From positions 1 to 64,000 of the forward strand of contig JAUSDY010000170.1 in the NCBI GenBank assembly GCA_030650395.1: a stretch of DNA of 64,000 nucleotides, read 5' to 3'. Numbering within the stretch: position 1 is the stretch's first letter; every line of letters begins with the position of its first letter. Made by a program: the position numbers and the translations under genes. Source of the stretch: Acidobacteriota bacterium (GTDB lineage Bacteria > Acidobacteriota > Vicinamibacteria > Vicinamibacterales > UBA2999). The notes beneath the pieces were generated by a model that saw only the letters and a program-made list of their open reading frames with translations, searched no databases and was not told the origin of the DNA. This document shows, in pieces, positions 16,024 to 17,798 of the stretch.

Positions 16024-17798
<1,775 letters not shown>

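Follow-up and report, generated by a model that had tools for sequence, protein, structure and literature searches.

A REP-like palindrome read in frame in variable loops of unrelated protein genes in an acidobacterial genus

Introduction

Canonical REP elements carry a GT[AG]G motif located 0-2 nt from a hairpin with a stem of 7-20 bp and a loop of 2-5 nt (PMC6006769). In-frame REPs within genes have been described in O. terrae, Thauera, Xanthomonas, and others, and the O. terrae element GTAG-20 mostly carries GTGG; the same source describes a TIRYT group of Acidobacteria and reports that REPtrons can be missing (PMC3733652). The RPEs are Rickettsia palindromes of ~150 bp with their own ORF, found in frame in unrelated genes (PMC10969869). 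Additionally, nematomorph mitochondria harbor perfect inverted repeats in functional protein-coding genes (PMC6649704).

The DNA analysed here, hereafter the window, is a stretch of 64,000 nucleotides from an acidobacterial assembly (contig JAUSDY010000170.1). A sequence-only reading of the window had drawn attention to a 26-bp palindrome within an acyl-CoA dehydrogenase gene. We describe this element in the genome of the window (G000, a 5.41-Mb assembly) and in its relatives (G001, G003, G004, G007, and G024).

Results

The dehydrogenase element and its intergenic twin

The host gene encodes an acyl-CoA dehydrogenase of 592 aa (16020-17798, minus strand), recognized by Pfam and a structure model. 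The palindrome GTGGGGACAAACCTTTAGGTTTGTCC runs from 16459 to 16434 on the minus strand within this ORF and was identified by repeat match and ssDNA fold as the short form of a REP-like element (16434-16459). Its parts, all on the minus strand, are a GTGG head (16459-16456), a first stem arm (16455-16447), a loop (16446-16443), and a second stem arm (16442-16434). The codons at the element, GGT GGG GAC AAA CCT TTA GGT TTG TCC, read G-GDKPLGLS, and GDKPLGLS corresponds to residues 448-455 of the protein; the protein stretch spanning the element is GGDKPLGLSDER. The sequence-only reading had proposed both the palindrome and the GDKPLGLS translation, and both were confirmed. It had also reported a second 26-bp copy outside genes, and this copy is indeed intergenic (34767-34792, plus strand), ending 14 nt 5' of the ATG of the next ORF (34806-36149, plus strand; 447 aa), a neighbour outside the element. 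The two window copies are identical over 27 bp in inverted orientation (16434-16460 versus 34766-34792). Directly left of the intergenic copy lie three tandem 21-nt units (34704-34766, plus strand), each made of flank and the element head GTGG.GACA.AC.

The dehydrogenase matched the Pfam domains PF02771, PF02770, PF00441, and PF21263. The element (aa 458-466 in the extended ORF) falls between Acyl-CoA_dh_1, which ends at 438, and Acyl-CoA-dh_C, which starts at 475. The dehydrogenase was the sole host modelled, using 28 aligned locus proteins as AlphaFold2 input. The model (mean pLDDT of 83.7, pTM of 0.87, loop-block pLDDT of 72-78) places GDKPLGLS within a loop at 444-455, flanked by helices at 434-443 and 456-485, and this loop is predicted to be the linker preceding the C-terminal helical domain.

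We also aligned 29 homologues of the dehydrogenase family, as the sequence-only reading had suggested; four share 64-87% identity, and the others, at 44-47%, are perhaps paralogues. GDKPLGLS was absent from all 29, and only G001 has an element at this site, a diverged long form. The loops of the relatives are variable: the G007 dehydrogenase (87% identical) has an unrelated loop equal in length to the element loop, and those of G004 and G024 are about 5 aa shorter at the loop. The Pfam boundaries, the model, and the homologues support the earlier proposal of a frame-keeping insertion in the loop between the core and the C-terminal domain. The dehydrogenase locus alone offers no clean pair of empty and filled sites, and the clearer cases are found in other genes.

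Copy number, anatomy, and distribution

The exact 24-mer of the element occurs 44 times in G000 and its reversed control 0 times; therefore, the palindrome is not a product of chance. The half-site GGGGACAAACC was found 92 times in G000, 57 times in G001, and 1 to 13 times in seven other genomes of the genus (reversed control, 0 or 1 per genome). Full short copies of the form GTGGSGACAAACCTNNAGGTTTGTCS numbered 110 in G000, dispersed over many contigs, against 0 for the reversed control, a high and dispersed copy number as in REPs. An alternative explanation is that the dehydrogenase loop drifted by point mutation and small indels, the palindrome being a coincidence. The variability of the loop among homologues and the unrelated G007 loop of equal length would fit such drift; however, the loop matches exactly, over 24 nt, a repeat with this many copies, and the same peptide occurs in more than 20 unrelated ORFs. 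The repeat copy number refutes chance and drift, and we give this explanation practically no weight.

The family comprises a first subfamily, GGGGACAA (the GGGGAC form), and a second, GGCGACAA, with the shared stem GACAAACC. The second subfamily, GTGGCGAC with arms GTGGCGACAAACC..GGTTTGTCG, has 56 copies in G000 and 44 in G001. When both letters of the stem foot were left free, the 110 copies of G000 were composed of 54 with a G-C pair and 56 with a C-G pair, and 0 of the 100 copies listed among them had a mismatch, which indicates compensatory change at the stem foot. The short form folds, as ssDNA, into a hairpin (9-bp stem, 4-nt loop) with an unpaired GTGG ahead of it (-8.6 kcal/mol, z of -4.8). 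This structure is common to both short subfamilies, and both have the canonical REP layout of GT[AG]G near a hairpin. A long form of ~59 bp, with the same ends as the short form, accounts for 13 of 97 copies; in the predicted fold, it has inverted ends and an internal hairpin. A REPIN joins two inverted REPs across a short spacer; in this family, divergent element pairs are also present (L066 and L114).

The elements could instead be the TIRs of a TIRYT, with the GGGGWSAS-type ends known from Acidobacteria, rather than GT[AG]G REPs. GGGGACA fits the first seven letters of GGGGWSAS, a TIRYT group of Acidobacteria has been described (PMC3733652), and the single Y1_Tnp match of G000, a 300-aa protein, has terminal repeats of this type (GGGGTCAG and GGGGACAG). 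However, position 8 is A and not C/G, and the equally abundant GTGGCGAC subfamily breaks GGGG while it keeps GTGG and the hairpin, so that the conserved unit is GTGG plus the stem. The TIRYT terminal repeat was set aside, as GGGGACAA and GGCGACAA do not fit GGGGWSAS, and we regard it as quite improbable.

The GGGGAC form was detected in 3 of 396 genomes of the phylum sample, all three in the genus of the window. A search of GTDB contigs with the exact 24-mer returned 21 stretches, 20 of them in MAGs titled Acidobacteria, Acidobacterium, or Candidatus Sulfopaludibacter. The remaining one lies on an Opitutaceae MAG contig (JAUSID010000156.1, L230), by transfer or misbinning.

Insertion context and left-flank arrays

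From the regions analysed, 97 copies were examined as a subset of all copies (66 from G000 and 31 from G001). In these regions, GT, which the search did not require, stands immediately before the element in 97 of 98 copies and before the half-site in 129 of 131 cases (85/85 in G000 and 44/46 in G001). Among the 97 copies, the base ahead of GT, at -3, was never A (T in 43, C in 24, G in 30), and the base after the element, at +1, was C in only 4.

If the head's GT belongs to the target, the net insert would be 24 nt (8 codons) or 57 nt (19 codons); both are codon multiples, and insertion would therefore cause no frame shift. Because the relatives' loops vary and no pre-insertion site is uncontested, the insert boundary rests on length parity, from which we infer that it falls after GT and spans 24 nt. 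The best case is a pseudouridine synthase, in which L099 minus 24 nt and minus a 15-nt tandem unit leaves 18 nt, equal to L186 and L188.

The left flank was tandemly duplicated in 13 of 97 copies versus 6 of 3880 control GT sites, and the right side in 1 of 97. These arrays, which often take in part of the element head (truncated heads), were found in the window at 34704-34766 and in L128, L115, L107, L075, L083, L109, L099, and L127. In the GcvP of G000, the array encodes RGDKPV-RGDKPV-RGDKPLGLS. The arrays may reflect either hairpin slippage or a trace of insertion. Replication that slips or switches template at hairpins might alone have spread the elements, with no transposase; the left-flank arrays would then be its traces. 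The one-sided excess of duplications, the truncated heads, and a cognate RAYT not found in G000 or G001 agree with this explanation, but slippage explains local arrays and not about a hundred dispersed sites with a fixed head and tail, and a RAYT gene of G007 has sister-family copies on either side. Spread by slippage alone is, in our judgment, unlikely.

Copies inside protein genes

Copies were called in-gene with a codon-usage model trained on the window genes, which needed a coding signal on both sides of the element. As a result, 33 of the 97 copies were in-gene, 35 were clearly outside genes, and 29 were undecided or at gene edges. A Pfam match was obtained for 28 of the 33 host ORFs. The G000 hosts comprise a molybdopterin dehydrogenase FAD subunit, a PSD/PSCyt protein, a kinase/GAF protein, Ham1, an abhydrolase, YkuD, an S58 peptidase, a UvrD/PDDEXK protein, a GCV_T-domain protein, a pseudouridine synthase, a trypsin-like protein, an MFS-spermine synthase, a PD40/amidohydrolase, a TPR protein, COX15, a ClpA-type AAA protein, GcvP, and the acyl-CoA dehydrogenase. 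The G001 hosts comprise an Eco57I methylase, an MFS protein, a molybdopterin oxidoreductase, a pseudouridine synthase, an M16 peptidase, GcvP, PriA, AlkA, an MFS-spermine synthase, and Mfd. The element lies beside or inside matched domains or in an aligned loop in 22 of the 28 hosts; it is N-terminal to the matched domain in L072, L085, L088, L136, and L142, and the TPR match of L114a falls below the cut-off. The five in-gene copies in ORFs with neither a Pfam nor an NCBIfam match (L090, L095, L104, L109, and L147) comprised four in the DKP phase and one in the TNL phase. We infer that the in-frame copies are translated.

A single reading phase predominates

The phase G|GAC reads DKPxGLS from either strand. 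With the hairpin phase unchanged, the opposite strand reads DKPKGLSP, an almost identical peptide, so that the orientation of the element makes little difference. For the TTTA form, the second and third phases each meet a stop on one strand and are open on the other, where the second reads TNLKVCP and the third GQTFRFV. The DKP phase was used in 25 of 28 Pfam-matching hosts (17/20 short forms and 8/8 long forms), and the TNL phase in the other three ORFs (L085, the ClpA-type L115, and AlkA L162).

For the null expectation, the element was placed after each eligible GT/AC site of 35 window genes, and open placements were counted. The expected DKP share was 26.8% (TTTA short form), 18.1% (TTCA short form), and 15.0% (long form), so that the use of 26.8% for short forms is conservative. 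The DKP excess was strong for short (binomial p of 9.0e-8) and long forms (2.6e-7). Copies at shared sites are not independent; when two same-site pairs were each counted once, without their G001 member, 15 of 18 short copies were in the DKP phase (p of 9.1e-7). Without the six weaker hosts (L072, L085, L088, L136, L142, and L114a), 20 of 22 were in the DKP phase, with 13/15 short (p of 2.2e-6) and 7/7 long (p of 1.7e-6); with no Pfam filter, the count was 29 of 33.

The GTGGCGAC subfamily provided a prospective test, in which the DKP prediction was fixed before sequence analysis of the first 20 listed G000 clusters outside the regions already examined. The 20 regions contained 23 elements, 11 of them in-gene (nine DKP and two TNL). 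In Pfam-matching ORFs, seven of eight were in the DKP phase (short 5/6, p of 0.006; long 2/2, p of 0.02). The DKP hosts were a PIG-L/NEW3 protein, MacB/FtsX, a cytochrome P450, a reaction-centre-type cytochrome c, BatA, and LeuRS twice. L280, the TNL case counted among the eight, has its element at aa 157, ahead of a permease-family match starting at aa 222, and in the DKP case L279 the element is likewise N-terminal to the domain (aa 55 versus 79). The ORFs with no family were L276 (TNL), L284 (DKP), and L274 at 2001 (DKP). Separately, the element of L277 near 2001, minus strand (G000:C19:54083-54108), has a TTGA loop and, in the DKP phase, an in-frame TGA (GGDKP*GLS) within an otherwise continuous, acyl-CoA-synthetase-like ORF. 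This is either a REP-broken gene or a very recent change, and L277 was left out of all phase counts.

The same loops in relatives

Related loci of the genus were found with one concatenated flank query, and 17 host genes were aligned with 1 to 7 relatives each. In these alignments, conserved blocks enclose a variable stretch, and the element lies within it. DNA-level views covered 10 genes, with GcvP (L128) and an MFS protein (L139) left out. In several genes, G000 and G001 carry different forms at the same site: short and long, respectively, in the dehydrogenase and the M16 peptidase; short twice and long in Ham1; long and short in the UvrD-PDDEXK protein, the GCV_T-domain protein, and the MFS-spermine synthase; and long and short-degenerate in the PD40 protein. 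In GcvP, both have the short form, and the RGDKPV repeats are extra in G000. In the remaining relatives, the peptide was absent or the loop held unrelated short repeats.

Several further loop sequences were observed. A G000 MFS protein (L215) has GENKPLTLPA where its G001 orthologue has GGDKPLGLS, possibly a decayed element retained as protein. The G001 S58 peptidase (L177) has AGGCAGA/AAAAGGC short tandem repeats in frame, in the loop that is the REP site of G000; such repeats also occur in the window at 168-216 and 22398-22460. In G007, L169, L180, and L195 have GGCTGGTGG-type arrays (GRAGRAGRAG, GAGGAGGAG) in loops that hold REPs in G000, and these arrays resemble the array part of the element without the hairpin. 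The window additionally contains an 8-bp tandem array at 58423-58510 (CAGGGGTT) and an inverted CAGATCT-rich repeat at 26588-26678.

Given the phase bias, the in-gene copies might be under positive selection, the DKP..GLS peptide or the RNA/DNA hairpin having been recruited for a function such as mRNA structure, translational pausing, or regulation. The bias is very strong, the hairpin is conserved with compensatory change, and two species have elements at the same loops, as this explanation would predict. However, the hosts are functionally unrelated, relatives lack the element or have unrelated repeats in the same loops, and 64 of the 97 copies were not called in-gene. Moreover, purifying selection alone suffices to explain the phase bias, and we consider a recruited function very unlikely.

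A sister REP family and the transposase

G007 and G003 have another palindrome, GTGGAGGCAACCCC(N)GGGGTTGCCT, in the loop of the S58 peptidase, and it too is composed of GTGG and a hairpin. It has 26 copies in G007 and 0-3 in eight other genomes of the genus. The G007 Y1 domain at C2:47054-47374 has one GTGGAGGCAACCCC-family copy on its left and two inverted copies on its right, which is the REPtron layout, and by sequence its protein resembles short RAYTs, a label of our own. Seven of the 26 copies were in-gene, all seven in Pfam-matching ORFs, with four in one hairpin phase and three in another; the preference for a single phase is therefore not general. The prediction that only copies with a 5-nt loop would be genic was not clearly borne out in this family (5-nt loop, 6/19; 6-nt loop, 1/7). 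In the MacB/FtsX protein, a G007-family copy occupies the same site as the GACAAACC long form of G000, with 486 of 636 aligned residues identical.

Two-sided flanking by the GACAAACC REP was found at none of the Y1 genes whose neighbourhoods were examined (one in G000 and five in G001). One-sided element copies lie ~1.2 kb downstream of the G000 Y1 gene; in G001, two Y1 genes have such copies at distances of ~0.9 and 1.2 kb. The G001 Y1 genes on C47, C48, and C178 were rejected as REPtrons, the half-sites being on the same contig but at most one-sided. C178 of G001 encodes a short RAYT-like protein.

Discussion

The best explanation, to which we assign a probability of about 0.84, is that the dehydrogenase stretch is one copy of a high-copy REP that entered the gene by copying, with a RAYT acting in trans as the most likely agent. 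The copy number, the covarying hairpin, the open reading through conserved genes, the phase bias, and the location in variable loops are direct observations, and movement by a RAYT is deduced from the REP anatomy and the G007 REPtron. A RAYT-type HUH/Y1 transposase would act in trans on single-stranded DNA and copy the REP into a gene. A genic insertion would survive if it falls in a loop and in the hairpin phase G|GAC, which would yield the polar, turn-like DKPxGLS in either orientation; other phases would give stops or hydrophobic or Cys-bearing peptides. Afterwards, the permissive loop could undergo exchange of long and short forms, left-side tandem amplification, or, in relatives, replacement by other REP families.

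A broader and more tentative reading, which we consider possible but rather doubtful, is that REPs drive loop turnover throughout the genus and that life in genes has shaped the GACAAACC stem, with its benign DKPxGLS phase. In the loops of core enzymes, one REP family would then give way to the next, and long forms, short forms, and left-flank arrays would likewise occupy the loops and replace one another. The stem would be adapted in that, with either orientation and a codon-multiple length, one phase gives the benign peptide. If this were true, the REP would not be limited to intergenic regions but would have adapted, as a mobile element, to coding DNA. In this GC-rich acidobacterial lineage, short mobile-looking DNA appears to be made into protein: nearly the same peptide occurs in close to 30 unrelated ORFs, and congeners fill the same sites differently, which suggests one route by which proteins gain new segments. 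Insertion-tolerant loops, selection on the reading phase, and the adaptation to coding sequence of a REP, an element named extragenic, become testable.

Judged by title, none of the papers found in the open-licence literature searched describes this element. As far as these searches show, the element family and its lineage are new, as are a phase preference that was quantified and prospectively repeated, the codon-multiple length, the exchange of long and short forms, and the occurrence of another REP family at shared loops.

The sequence-only reading had likened the palindrome to the Rickettsia elements, but in another phylum. The in-frame occurrence in unrelated genes holds, whereas the closest class is REP; the host is indeed acidobacterial, but another phylum is not in itself a first, since in-frame REPs outside Rickettsia are already described in O. 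terrae and Thauera (PMC3733652). Like the GT[AG]G (GTAG) superfamily of REPs and REPINs, the element has GT[AG]G at the foot of a short hairpin, a size of 20-40 bp, and a high copy number, and a RAYT link is seen in the sister species G007. Unlike them, it has a new stem, GACAAACC, restricted in the phylum sample to one genus, and a flanking RAYT was not found for this family in G000 or G001. It also differs from described REPs in its strong single-phase protein use and in that congeners fill the same loops with long or short forms or with another REP family. The TIRYT TIRs share the GGGGACA head, and the G000 Y1 gene, with its GGGGWSAS-type ends, belongs to the type that PMC3733652 names TIRYT; nevertheless, position 8 and the GTGGCGAC subfamily misfit GGGGWSAS. 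In the nematomorph palindromes, as described in PMC6649704, the arms encode conserved regions, whereas here a dispersed repeat adds a segment to a variable loop. With the RPEs, which were compared by description only, the element shares in-frame insertion in unrelated protein genes (28 Pfam-matching host ORFs), and it is distinguished from them by a length of 26 or ~59 bp (24 or 57 nt net), a REP-type hairpin, and its acidobacterial host. We therefore file the GACAAACC element as a GT[AG]G-type REP, minus the usual flanking RAYT, that works like an RPE.
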